Positions 15,063 through 21,790 of a stretch of 64,000 nucleotides of DNA are shown in pieces. The notes beneath the pieces are model-generated. The model had not been told where the DNA came from. It searched no databases and worked only from the letters and a program-made list of their open reading frames with translations. This stretch comes from Paracoccaceae bacterium (GTDB taxonomy: Bacteria > Pseudomonadota > Alphaproteobacteria > Rhodobacterales > Rhodobacteraceae): positions 1 through 64,000 of the forward strand of contig JANSXZ010000009.1 of the NCBI GenBank assembly GCA_024742705.1. Direction: 5' to 3'. Every line of letters begins with the position of its first letter. The first letter of the stretch is position 1. Both the position numbers and the translations under genes were made by a program.

Positions 15063-15412
15063 CGGCGAAAGGCGCGTTTCAGCAGATCGAGTTCGGCACG
15101 CAGCAGTGCGACGTCGCCCTGCAGGTCGGTGTGGGGCGGGGTGCCGGCCACCACTGTGATCTGGCCCAGCCGGCGGTCGGTTGCGGCGTCTCTCGCGGTG
15201 AGCGTATGGGCACCGTCCGATAGCATCCGCACCGGCACGTCGACTTCCATGCGCCAGCCGCCCTGCCGCCTGGTCAGGCGCACGTCCTCGATGGGATCGG
15301 GCCCAAGGCGGACCACGAGGGCAGGCGGGCCGCTGTCGGTAGGTGTTCCGCTGACAGTGGCCTGCCAGACGCCGTTCGTCAGATGGCTGTCGGTGAGCAT
15401 CAGTTCGGGCAT
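15032..15412 (-). CDS. Conserved hypothetical protein, last gene of lipoprotein-DUF6478 operon
   Basis: A 126-aa protein starting MPELMLTDSHLTNGVWQA. I do not recognise a domain. It looks like a beta-rich module (residues 1-90: alternating hydrophobic strands such as TVSGTPTD, ALVVRLGP, GGWRMEVDVPV) followed by a short helical tail (DVALLRAELDLLKRAFRRH). There is no signal peptide. The ATG overlaps the stop of the DUF6478 gene as TGATG, so the two are translationally coupled. Its last 31 bp overlap the 3' end of glk on the other strand. Confidence 0.7.
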   Translation of the reverse strand: MPELMLTDSHLTNGVWQATVSGTPTDSGPPALVVRLGPDPIEDVRLTRRQGGWRMEVDVPVRMLSDGAHTLTARDAATDRRLGQITVVAGTPPHTDLQGDVALLRAELDLLKRAFRRHCDPDADAG

Positions 15413-16032
15413 CACAACGCGGCCCTCACCCGACGCGACAGACAAACATCGCCGATTTCGATCCGGTTCATGGCGGGCGCGTCAAGGATCAGGTCCAGCC
15501 ACCCTTGCGTCACCCGGCCAACTTGCAGCGGCACCTGGCTCAGATCGAACTGAACCCGGTGCCGGCCCGGCCCGCGCGGCAGTTCAAGCAGGATCTGTTC
15601 GACGTTCGGGCCGCTGCGGATGTTGAGCCGGGCAAAGATCTCGATCGGTTTCTCCATCTCCAGAACGACGTCGAGCGCGATGACGTGATGGGGGGCAAGG
15701 GCGGTGAGGGCTGCATCGGGCAGATCGAAGGCGAGCGACAGGAAACCGCCCTGAAACGCAAAGACTTCGCAGACCAGAAGGTGCGGCGGGCCTTCGGCCA
15801 GAGACCGCAGGGCGATCTCTGCCAGCGGGCAATCGTGAAACAGCGTGGCGCCGGGGGCCAGTTCGGTCTTGTCGGCGATGCCCACCCACCCGGCGTCGGG
15901 CTGCCGTTCCGACCACAGCGGCGAGCGCCACATCCAGTCGGTTCCATGCGGCAGGTCCGGCGCCGGAAGCGGTGGCGCCGGTTCTGCGCGCGATGCGAAA
16001 AGACCGCGCCAAACGGGCATCAGGGGCCTCAC
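15412..16032 (-). CDS. DUF6478 family protein
   Basis: A 206-aa protein of a family I know from Rhodobacteraceae with no assigned function. Family stretches visible are GTDWMWRSPLW, TLFHDCPLAEI, GGFLSLAFDLPDAAL, EKPIEIFARLNIRSGPN and a final strand-rich part with DVCLSRRVRAAL. The pattern suggests a beta-sandwich, without signal peptide or membrane helix. The start is GTG at 16032, overlapping the stop of the upstream lipoprotein gene (GTGA). This copy appears shorter at the N-terminus than relatives I remember. Co-expression with a lipoprotein hints at an envelope or surface-polysaccharide role, which is inference. Confidence 0.75.
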   Translation of the reverse strand: MRPLMPVWRGLFASRAEPAPPLPAPDLPHGTDWMWRSPLWSERQPDAGWVGIADKTELAPGATLFHDCPLAEIALRSLAEGPPHLLVCEVFAFQGGFLSLAFDLPDAALTALAPHHVIALDVVLEMEKPIEIFARLNIRSGPNVEQILLELPRGPGRHRVQFDLSQVPLQVGRVTQGWLDLILDAPAMNRIEIGDVCLSRRVRAAL

Positions 16033-18688: not shown

Positions 18689-21600
18689 ATGGAAAGATCG
18701 CTGTTTGCGTTCATCTGGAAACACTCGAAGCGTCAGCAACTGGTCCTGCTGGGGCTGACGCTGATCTCGTTTCCATTCCTCTATGCGTCGCTCGAATTGC
18801 CCAAGCGGATCATCAACGATGCCATCGGTGCCGAACGCGACACGATCGATGTGGCCGGCGTGAGCATCGGCCAGGTGCAGTTCCTGATGGTGCTGTGTTT
18901 CCTGTTTCTGGCGGCGGTGCTGGTCAGCGGTCTGATGAAGATGCGGATCAACACGATGAAGGGCATCGTGGCCGAACGGCTGCTGCGGCGGTTCCGGTAC
19001 ACGCTGATCAATCGCATGATGCGGTTCCCCCAGCCTTATTTCCGCGCCACCAGCCAGGGCGAGATCGTTTCGATGGTCACATCCGAGGCCGAACCGATGG
19101 GCGGGCTGATGGGCGACGCGGTTGCGCAGCCGGTGTTCCAGGCGGGCCAGATGCTGACGATCGTCACCTTCCTGTTCATGCAGAGCGTGTGGTTTGGCCT
19201 GGCTTCGGTGGCGTTGATCCCCTTGCAGGCGTGGCTGATCCCGATGCTGCAACGCCAGATCAACCAGTTGAACAAGAAGCGGGTGATCGAAGTGCGCGCG
19301 CTGGCGTCGGAGATCGGCGAAACCGCCGCGGGCATGGCCGATCTGCGCATCAACGGCGGCTGGCGGTTCCGTCTGGCCGAGTTCACCGCGCGGCTGGGGC
19401 GGCTGTTCGACATCCGCTTCCAGATCTACCAGAAGAAATTCTTCATGAAGTTTCTCAACAACTTCATAACCCAGTTGACGCCCTTCTTCTTTTACTCGGT
19501 CGGCGGCTATCTGGCGATCCGGGGGGATATCACGGTGGGCGCACTGGTGGCGGCGCTGGCCGCCTACAAGGATCTTTCCAGCCCGTGGAAAGAGCTTCTG
19601 ACCTATTACAACCAGGTGCAGGACATGTCGCTGCGCTGGCAGATCGTCACCGAACGCTTTGCGCCGGCGAACATGATCGCGCCCGAACTCTTCGAAGGTG
19701 AACCGGCGACGATACCGCGCCTGAACGGGGCCATCGAAATCCGCGACGTGACGCTGCGCGATGCCAACGGCAACACCATTCTCGAGGATATCAACCTGGA
19801 TATTCCTGCCGGTGCGCGGGTGGCGATCCAGAGCACCAGCGCCACCGAAAGGGCCGCCTTCGCCGATCTGATGACCCGCGAGGCATTGCCGATGCGCGGT
19901 TCGGTTACGATGGCCGGGCACCCGCTGAACGAATTGCATCAATCGGTTCTGGCCGCGCGCATCGGCTATGCACATTCGCGGCCCTATTTCTTTGACGGCA
20001 CGCTGGGCCAGAACCTGACGATGGCCTTGCGCGCCCGGCCGCTGACGGTGAAATGGGATCCCGGCCACCGCGACCGCATGTTCAACGAGGCGCGGCGCGC
20101 CGGCAACAGCCTCGATCCGCTCGATGTCGAGTGGCTGGATCCGGATCTGGCCGGGCTGACCCGCGACGAAGATGTTCAGGACTGGTGGTTCAAGCTGGTG
20201 CAGGCGATGGGCACCGACGAAGCGATGTTCCGCCGCACCCTGCGGTCGACCTTCGATCCGGCGCTGCACCGCGATCTGGCCCGCGCCATCGTCGATCTGC
20301 GCCCGGTGGTTCTGGAACGGCTGCGCGCCGCCGGGCTGGACGATGCGGTATACCGGTTCGACCCCAACCAGTTCAATCCGGCGGTGCCTCTGGGCGGCAA
20401 CCTTCTGTTCGCGGTGCCGACGCGGTCGATCACCCAGGAGCAACTGGCCAAAAGCCACGACTTCATCGACCTTCTACGCGAAAACGGCATCGCGCCGCAG
20501 GCCATGGAGATTGCTCTGGGGATCCTGCAGACCCTGCGGCAGACCTTTGGCAGCGACGGCACCGATCATCCGCTGTTCCGGCGTCTGAATTTCGATGCCG
20601 ACACCTATATCCGACTGTCGGCCATCGCCCAGAGACGCCAGGACAAGGGCCCGGCCGCGCTGACATCGGACGAAGAGGCGCTGTTGCTGACGATGCCGTT
20701 TCTTCTGACCGCCGAACAGATCGGCCCGGAATTCAGCGAGGCCTACAAGGAGCGTATCCTGACCATGCGCCTTGCCAAGGCGGATGTGCTGCGCAAGGCC
20801 GTGGGCGACCTGTTCACGCCGGTGGCGCCGGATGTCTATCTGGCCCGGTTGTCGCCGCTGGAAAACGCGATCTACGGGCGGGTTTCGATGATGGCCGGCG
20901 CCCGGTTCGAACTGATCGAGAACCTTGTCGCCGAGGTGCTGGCCGAAAACGGCCTGCGCCAGGCGATGGCGGCGGTGATCTTCGACATGCCCAGCGGTCT
21001 TGGCGGCGCCAGCCTGCCCACTGCCATCCAGGAGCGCGCCGCGTTCAGCCGCGCGGGCATCAAGCGCCCCGATATCCTGATCCTCGACAAGGCGCTGGCC
21101 AGTCACGACGCCAAAAGCAGGTCGCAGGCGCGCAGCCGCCTGCGCGAACTGATGCCCGACACCACGATGGTGTTCATGGAGGACAAGTTCGAACACCCCG
21201 AGGCCTACGATCTGTTCGTCGAAATCCGCGACGGCCGCATCGGCGACATGTCCCTTGTCGGTGACCGGGCCGCCGGCGGAACCGGCGCGAACGATCTGCG
21301 CCGCAAACAGCGGCTTCTGGCGGAAACAGAACTGTTCGGCGGGCTGGATGCGCGCAACCAGAGACTGCTGGCCTTCACGGCGCAATGGTACAAGGCACCG
21401 GCCGGCCATGTGATCTTTGCCGAAGGACAACCGGCCGACGCGGTCTATCTGTGCCTCGAGGGCAATGCCGAACTGCGCTGGCACGGCGCGGCAGAAGGCT
21501 CGCGGCCGGTGGCGACGGTACAGCCAGGCCGGCTGATCGGCGATCTGACGGTGATCCTGGGCGAAAACCGCCAGATGGATCTGGTGGCCATGACGGATGT

Positions 21601-21790
21601 GAAATTCCTGCGCATCGGCGCCGAGGAATTCCGCGCCGTCATGGAAAACGATACGGAGGTGGCGATGAACCTTGTGCGGACCGTTGCACGCAACCTGTCG
21701 GGCGCGGCCGAGTTGTTGCGCACCGCGCGCATCGACATTCCCGAATTTCAGGGCCCCGACCGCTTTCCCTATGTCAATTCGCTGAACTGA
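18689..21790 (+). CDS. ABC exporter-like fusion with degenerate ATPase and C-terminal cNMP-binding domain
   Basis: A 1033-aa inner-membrane protein. Residues 1-310 resemble a type 1 ABC exporter membrane domain. The nucleotide-binding domain starts near 347 but has no P-loop: the position of GxxGxGKS reads AIQSTSATERAAF (about 379-391). A 260-residue insertion (about 450-715) precedes the signature region SGLGGAS (769-775) and a Walker B DILILDK (795-801) with Lys instead of the catalytic Glu. Three Q-loop-like segments recur: DGTLGQNLT, VPLGGNLLF and LSPLENAIYG. Residues about 875-1010 form a cyclic-nucleotide-binding domain (GHVIFAEGQPADAVYLCLEG...GRLIGDLTVI). ATP hydrolysis is unlikely, so it may be a sensor or scaffold. 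A CPBP protease gene follows after 2 bp. The substrate is unknown. Confidence 0.85.
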   Translation: MERSLFAFIWKHSKRQQLVLLGLTLISFPFLYASLELPKRIINDAIGAERDTIDVAGVSIGQVQFLMVLCFLFLAAVLVSGLMKMRINTMKGIVAERLLRRFRYTLINRMMRFPQPYFRATSQGEIVSMVTSEAEPMGGLMGDAVAQPVFQAGQMLTIVTFLFMQSVWFGLASVALIPLQAWLIPMLQRQINQLNKKRVIEVRALASEIGETAAGMADLRINGGWRFRLAEFTARLGRLFDIRFQIYQKKFFMKFLNNFITQLTPFFFYSVGGYLAIRGDITVGALVAALAAYKDLSSPWKELLTYYNQVQDMSLRWQIVTERFAPANMIAPELFEGEPATIPRLNGAIEIRDVTLRDANGNTILEDINLDIPAGARVAIQSTSATERAAFADLMTREALPMRGSVTMAGHPLNELHQSVLAARIGYAHSRPYFFDGTLGQNLTMALRARPLTVKWDPGHRDRMFNEARRAGNSLDPLDVEWLDPDLAGLTRDEDVQDWWFKLVQAMGTDEAMFRRTLRSTFDPALHRDLARAIVDLRPVVLERLRAAGLDDAVYRFDPNQFNPAVPLGGNLLFAVPTRSITQEQLAKSHDFIDLLRENGIAPQAMEIALGILQTLRQTFGSDGTDHPLFRRLNFDADTYIRLSAIAQRRQDKGPAALTSDEEALLLTMPFLLTAEQIGPEFSEAYKERILTMRLAKADVLRKAVGDLFTPVAPDVYLARLSPLENAIYGRVSMMAGARFELIENLVAEVLAENGLRQAMAAVIFDMPSGLGGASLPTAIQERAAFSRAGIKRPDILILDKALASHDAKSRSQARSRLRELMPDTTMVFMEDKFEHPEAYDLFVEIRDGRIGDMSLVGDRAAGGTGANDLRRKQRLLAETELFGGLDARNQRLLAFTAQWYKAPAGHVIFAEGQPADAVYLCLEGNAELRWHGAAEGSRPVATVQPGRLIGDLTVILGENRQMDLVAMTDVKFLRIGAEEFRAVMENDTEVAMNLVRTVARNLSGAAELLRTARIDIPEFQGPDRFPYVNSLN

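Follow-up and report, generated by a model that had tools for sequence, protein, structure and literature searches.

The 64,000-nucleotide stretch of DNA analyzed here (the window; contig JANSXZ010000009.1 of a Paracoccaceae bacterium, positions 1 to 64,000) carries a gene, P0001, with the architecture of an ATP-binding cassette (ABC) exporter and without the motifs by which such exporters hydrolyze ATP, which raises the question of what the protein is kept for. The gene occupies 18689..21790 on the forward strand, as do all the features of P0001 given below, and is an open frame of 1033 residues with homologues matching across almost its whole length. The answer that we tentatively favor, and to which we would give slightly less than an even chance, is that P0001 has kept the exporter scaffold but lost ATP hydrolysis, the state of its membrane domain being set by partners and by a domain of nucleotide-binding type. 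P0001 is no lone oddity, as it belongs to one clade of a family whose ATP sites range from near-intact to dead.

The layout of P0001 is that of a type IV ABC exporter, with an ABC_membrane domain and then an ABC ATPase fold, as judged from Pfam and from the predicted structure. The transmembrane domain (residues 1–320, 18689..19648), identified by Pfam ABC_membrane (residues 42–290, 64.9 bits) and by the helices of the AlphaFold2 model, was the most conserved part of the protein, with a mean entropy of 0.53 bits versus 0.91–1.33 bits for the other parts. The two halves of a degenerate ATPase domain follow (residues 345–445, 19721..20023, and residues 716–860, 20834..21268), in which Pfam found only a sub-threshold fragment of ABC_tran (residues 365–456, 17.5 bits against a cut-off of 25). 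The cyclic-nucleotide-binding (cNMP) domain at the C-terminus (residues 880–1005, 21326..21703), whose fusion had been proposed from the letters of the window alone (the sequence-only reading), was confirmed by a match to Pfam cNMP_binding (PF00027; residues 903–988, 56.1 bits against a cut-off of 27.5). The Pfam scan, with E up to 1, returned these three families, and neither an N-terminal cNMP domain nor a C39 peptidase domain. In a sequence search of solved structures, exporters including MsbA and TM288 aligned with P0001 as two separate pieces on either side of an insertion; for MsbA, the matched pieces were residues 59–447 and 754–859.

The first structure prediction for P0001 by AlphaFold2, from 60 rows that drew on 59 of the 80 Rhodobacterales loci described below, was of an exporter fold (predicted local distance difference test score, pLDDT, 80.4; predicted template modeling score 0.65). 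The best structural matches were tied between TM287/288 (Z 24.0, root-mean-square deviation 5.0, 408 residues aligned), PCAT1 (Z 23.8, 5.0, 423 residues) and TmrAB (Z 23.8, 8.5, 426 residues), that is, heterodimeric and peptidase-type exporters, and SUR2 was also among the matches. P0001 thus has its membrane domain, ATPase fold and domain order in common with the type IV exporters MsbA, TM287/288, TmrAB and PCAT1, but differs from them in having no Walker A Gly-Lys, no Walker B Glu and no LSGGQ signature, and in having a 270-residue insertion with a repeated Q-loop segment and the C-terminal cNMP domain.

The Walker A region of P0001 (residues 379–391) reads AIQSTSATERAAF, and no GxxGxGK[ST] pattern was found in it. 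The positions of the Gly-Lys pair, in the first ATPase half, are held by E387 and R388, and this was so in all 81 rows of a Rhodobacterales alignment made up of the window protein and the best 80 of 407 places in genome contigs that encode a relative. Walker B, in the second half, reads ILILDKALASHD; D800 was kept in 74 of the 81 rows, and residue 801, the site of the catalytic glutamate, was never Glu (Lys in 47, Thr in 13, Gln in 9, Arg in 7, Asn in 3 and His in 2). The sequence-only reading had claimed both losses, the second as a Lys in place of Glu, and each was borne out across the clade. The signature region of the second half is altered, with LSGGQ absent from all 81 rows and from all 116 rows of a wider set described below. 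The old P-loop positions 383–386 varied with 1.7–2.75 bits of entropy while the flanking A379, E387, R388 and A390 were invariant, and variability at these positions is expected if phosphate binding there has been lost. The candidate H-loop residue, 832, was His in 22 of the 116 wider-set rows and Asp in 67 of the 81; the register is uncertain, since His is split between this position and the next column (His in 33 of the 81).

The remainder of the protein has been retained. The 80 Rhodobacterales loci encode proteins with 59–70% identity to P0001 over almost the full length, and five pairwise ratios of nonsynonymous to synonymous substitution rates (dN/dS) ranged from 0.22 to 0.44, at dS values of 0.70–1.04 that indicate partial saturation. 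Based on these sequence comparisons, P0001 is maintained under purifying selection and its ATP site is not.

The insertion between the ATPase halves (approximately 270 residues, 446–715; 20024..20833), for which the sequence-only reading had given a separation of about 260 residues, was 267–272 residues long in all 81 rows and exactly 270 in 74, and it yielded a profile of its own, A2. The same reading had noted three recurring Q-loop-like segments, here placed at residues 424–446 (19958..20026), 554–577 (20348..20419) and 709–733 (20813..20887), and had proposed profile searches for them. In such searches the three matched one another, with probabilities of 98% for segments 2 and 3, 91% for segments 1 and 2, and 90% for segments 1 and 3. 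The repeats are therefore related by profile, but the Q-loop Gln itself is missing from segment 1 (GYAHSRPYFF). When 100-residue profile windows were tiled over P0001, the top ten of 153 non-overlapping pairs scored from 84 down to 32, against a median of 11, and all ten joined windows holding two different Q-loop-like segments. Against the ATPase of an ordinary exporter from the same genome, segment 1 aligned up to the Q-loop and the start of the next helix, and segment 3 aligned from that point, the Q-loop onward, through the signature and Walker B; segment 2 gave no match in this single-sequence comparison, for which one of six local exporters passed the motif filter. A similar strand-helix-strand pattern was predicted by AlphaFold2 at segments 2 and 3. 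One ABC ATPase stretch thus appears to be present in P0001 at least twice and probably three times, and its repetition is the likely source of the insertion.

A tandem repeat in the DNA was considered as the basis of the three segments and rejected, as a scan at a low score threshold found only two arrays of 9-base units, so that the repeats are visible only in protein profiles. The insertion modeled alone (AlphaFold2, 8 rows, pLDDT 79.6) had no Foldseek match among solved structures at E ≤ 0.001 and no VIA-align match at Z ≥ 5 among the 785 chains aligned, neither of which implies a new fold.

The A2 profile, which covers only the insertion and was built from 13 rows, was used to find the family in searches confined to the phylum of the window genome. 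It matched 31 of 398 genomes in a phylum sample, all 31 within the window's class (the share of that sample lying outside the class is not stated), 98 of 289 genomes in a class sample and 30 of 149 in a sample of the window's family, Rhodobacteraceae. A tblastn search with the window insertion matched 263 of 72,556 plasmid records, in which the ten commonest organism names were alphaproteobacterial genera and three further organism names occurred beyond these. The family was found here only in Alphaproteobacteria, with class judged from named relatives. Most members beyond the window's family were of about 900 residues by open-frame length and had no fused cNMP domain.

The extent of change in the ATP site was followed in the wider set, a mix of 116 chosen rows from which those shorter than 800 residues had been dropped. 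The Walker A Lys was present in 46 rows, followed by Asp or Glu in 33 of these and by Ser or Thr in five, and a Walker B Asp-Glu was present in seven. Only four rows (L138, L111, L113 and L114) combined GK[ST] with the Walker B Asp-Glu. On a FastTree tree of the membrane domain, which had long outgroup branches, parsimony required at least 19 changes of the Walker A Lys state and at least 15 of the Walker B Glu state. Such counts alone cannot separate gain from loss; we infer loss from the ATP motifs being ancestral to ABC ATPases. With a few members still carrying GK[ST] and Asp-Glu, the loss of the ATP motifs looks derived, repeated and gradual across the family. The rows with a fused cNMP domain grouped in a single clade of 32 (98% local support), and GKS and Asp-Glu are retained there in L111, L113 and L114. 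Outside that clade, L130 had been scored as fused, but its C-terminal tail proved not to be a cNMP domain. A very divergent lineage (L118, L119, L121 and L122) lies on a long branch; its signature region is scrambled, and its Walker A has kept the glycines and lost the Lys. In Sinorhizobium meliloti (L089, 5962–8711) two frames with a four-base overlap together make up the family gene. The annotation table has no gene entry for the longer piece, and a 99.9% identical piece was present in the first eight records listed, including strain 1021.

A cNMP domain accompanied the family throughout 60 loci chosen from the members found in the phylum- and class-sample searches. It was encoded by a separate gene within 2 kb downstream in 53 loci and fused in seven, although in L172, which is among the 53, the cNMP gene and the core frame share a large overlap that may reflect a fusion or a frame break. 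The canonical phosphate cassette of such domains is Gly-Glu ... Arg-[Ser/Thr]-Ala, and by a pattern count it was present in 52 of the 60 domains, fused and separate, with a few of the eight non-canonical ones perhaps misplaced; the fused domains of L111, L113 and L114 all have it. The window clade does not have the canonical form. In its cassette (residues 948–967), G951, D952 and R961 were found in 81 of 81 rows, with the Gly-Asp-Leu region kept, and the residue after Arg961 was Gln in 65. P0001 therefore shares the PF00027 family and the cassette Gly, acidic residue and Arg with CRP/FNR-type domains, and differs from them in having Asp for Glu and, in most rows of its clade, Gln where Ser or Thr is usual after the Arg. 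Because of this alteration the ligand of P0001 is uncertain, and control by cyclic AMP (cAMP) or cyclic GMP (cGMP) is not to be assumed.

These data bear on the suggestion of the sequence-only reading that a transporter scaffold had become a nucleotide-controlled membrane sensor or regulator. Loss of the ATP site under purifying selection and a cNMP module tied to the family in 60 of 60 loci agree with the repurposing of a scaffold, and a role as a sensor or regulator is plausible, so that the suggestion is partly supported. The class III cyclase family was matched once in the window genome. In a Mesorhizobium plasmid (L094, 5027–45001), a 45-kb stretch around the family copy contains seven annotated adenylate/guanylate cyclases and a DUF3095 gene, which suggests local cyclic-nucleotide signaling around that ABC/cNMP pair. 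A general linkage to cyclases was rejected: when five cyclases of that locus were searched against the 60 loci, one matched five loci and the other four matched none. Filing P0001 as a defense system was likewise rejected, since every PADLOC match fell on the cNMP domain.

A second tie of the family was to genes of glycan type. The neighbors of many other members, as identified by Pfam in one locus and for one gene of a second, included GT28-like and GT4 glycosyltransferases, a histidine phosphatase and a small methyltransferase, together with a further neighbor annotated as a polysaccharide deacetylase, which Pfam and NCBIfam left unnamed in the locus scanned. We defined a glycan-type cluster as at least two of GT4, GT28-like, histidine phosphatase and deacetylase-like genes, using neighbor profiles built from 20 of the 60 loci and eight plasmid loci. 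Such a cluster was found near 43 of the 60 loci, including 30 of the 40 that had not contributed to the profiles, and in one of 20 control stretches of 17 kb each, placed arbitrarily in 20 family-bearing genomes. A cluster of this kind is retained alongside the fused copy on two Sulfitobacter plasmids. The small methyltransferase gene (Methyltransf_17, PF12692; at 7584–8069 in L165 and similarly elsewhere) lies near the cNMP gene, and its cluster profile matched 25 of the 60 loci.

Taken together with the favored reading, these ties suggest how P0001 might operate. The protein would dimerize in the manner of an exporter, perhaps pairing with its paralogue from another locus of the genome. Its membrane domain would be set by the nucleotide-binding-type domain at the C-terminus, along with contacts that the expanded helical region makes with partners, and not by ATP hydrolysis. 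P0001 would thus gate or regulate a process of the cell envelope, probably one involving surface glycan. Several observations weigh against this proposal. ATP or ADP may be bound without hydrolysis, as position 388 is a basic residue, Arg, and many relatives have GSGK-like loops, and a separate, ATP-competent partner may exist. The phosphate cassette of the window clade is the altered one. Lastly, the glycan-type cluster was found in none of the 80 Rhodobacterales loci, for each of which up to 15 kb was covered, and in none of the seven fused loci among the 60, and profiles detected no glycan-type genes in the whole window, so that a glycan role for P0001 is argued from its relatives.

The strongest of the other explanations is that P0001 is the dead half of a heterodimeric, ATP-driven exporter of the TM287/288 type with its active half encoded elsewhere in the genome, which we consider unlikely. 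It would fit the fold comparison, in which some of the best matches were heterodimeric exporters that have a degenerate site, and the genome has nine further exporter-like matches, among them one (L085) with an intact P-loop and LSGGQ. The genome also encodes a second copy of the family (G000:C28:20465-23467, L082), 54% identical to P0001. Of the 30 Rhodobacteraceae genomes with the family, 21 carried members of both paralogue clades, four the second only, three members outside both and two only a short form, although nine first-clade members were assigned by score alone and one second-clade copy (G083) lies on a long branch. Shared ancestry may explain this co-occurrence, and paired function is an obvious hypothesis. 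However, the second clade has also lost the Walker A Lys, with R388 in 26 of 26 rows including the copy of the window genome, as in 81 of 81 rows of the first clade, so no canonical ATP site could form between the two. Known degenerate exporter halves usually retain the Walker A Lys, which also counts against P0001 being such a half, and the annotation of four Rhodobacterales plasmid loci, taken from an incomplete gene table, lists no ABC half-transporter next to the gene.

It is also improbable, in our judgment, that P0001 provides envelope enzymes, for example the CAAX-type protease encoded next to it, with a structural scaffold, both transport and ligand sensing having been lost. The altered cNMP cassette would be in keeping with this, as would the close coupling of the Rce1/CPBP-type membrane protease gene (PF02517; 21793..22686, forward strand), whose GTG start lies two bases past the P0001 stop. 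The two genes are probably co-transcribed. The same neighbor is annotated in Ruegeria, and a gene cluster equated with the protease by position occupied this place in 66 of the 81 loci. In contrast, the invariance of G951, D952 and R961, and a cassette in the second clade with Gly-Glu and Arg in 26 of 26 rows (followed by Ala in 25), argue for a bound ligand, and a passive scaffold is difficult to reconcile with a membrane domain that is more conserved than any other part.

We regard as very unlikely the explanation that P0001 is an exporter with an unusual ATP site, in which Arg388 or residues of the insertion replace the P-loop. The invariance of E387 and R388 is compatible with it, and the Asp or Glu that follows the Lys in 33 of the 46 Lys-bearing relatives leaves room for an odd nucleotide site in parts of the family, but in the clade of P0001 the Walker A, the Walker B Glu and the signature have all been lost together and the loop is unconstrained. 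A decaying pseudogene, to which the loss of the catalytic motifs might point, was rejected as having a negligible chance given the open frame, the 59–70% identity across 80 loci, dN/dS of 0.22–0.44 and a near-constant insertion length.

CFTR and SUR are cases from animals in which an ABC exporter scaffold has become a channel or regulator. Both still bind ATP or ADP at Walker A motifs, unlike P0001, and their likeness to it is drawn at the level of the ABC fold only. A bolder proposal would make the family their bacterial counterpart, a class-wide group repeatedly and independently converted from ATP pumps to nucleotide-ligand-controlled gates or regulators of envelope glycan pathways, with a new helical module built from repeats within the ATPase and a dedicated cNMP-type partner; we consider this possible but doubtful.

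The ABC exporter fold, the cNMP domain and an exporter fused to a cNMP domain are already known. The last is represented by HetC of Nostoc, an ABC exporter with a fused cNMP-type domain that is described as required in vivo and is reported to bind guanosine tetraphosphate (ppGpp) in vitro (PMC10986499). HetC differs from P0001 in the N-terminal location of its cNMP domain, in carrying a C39 peptidase domain and in depending on an ATPase residue that is essential (PMC10986499); it provides a precedent for an exporter-borne cNMP-type domain that can bind a ligand other than cAMP. Among the literature searched, no paper was recognized as treating the P0001 family, no link to it was found in passages of a paper on Sinorhizobium Clr, and no description was met of a repeat-built insertion, repeatedly altered ATP motifs and an ever-present cNMP partner occurring together.

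Should its members function without hydrolyzing ATP, the family, with ATP sites from near-intact to dead, would provide a natural series for studying the conversion of ABC pumps, and the two recurrent ties, to the cNMP module and to the glycan-type cluster, provide concrete hypotheses on its control and on the process that it serves. Public records label these genes as ABC transporters or as cNMP-domain proteins, which masks both the loss of the ATP site and the recurrent ties.

Searches for promoters and terminators gave no signal exceeding that of shuffled controls. No relative was confirmed in a scan of viral contigs, and in none of 52 matching phage records did a match cover 80% of the query. 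The second family copy of the window genome (L082) has a divergent DUF3307 gene upstream, and the annotation of Ruegeria sp. TM1040 (L092) likewise shows a DUF3307 neighbor. The conserved setting of the window copy itself consists of ilvD and a DUF6478 gene upstream and the CAAX-type protease, accD and folC downstream; the DUF6478 protein is encoded at 15412–16032 on the reverse strand, and its neighbor cluster has members in 75 of the 81 loci.

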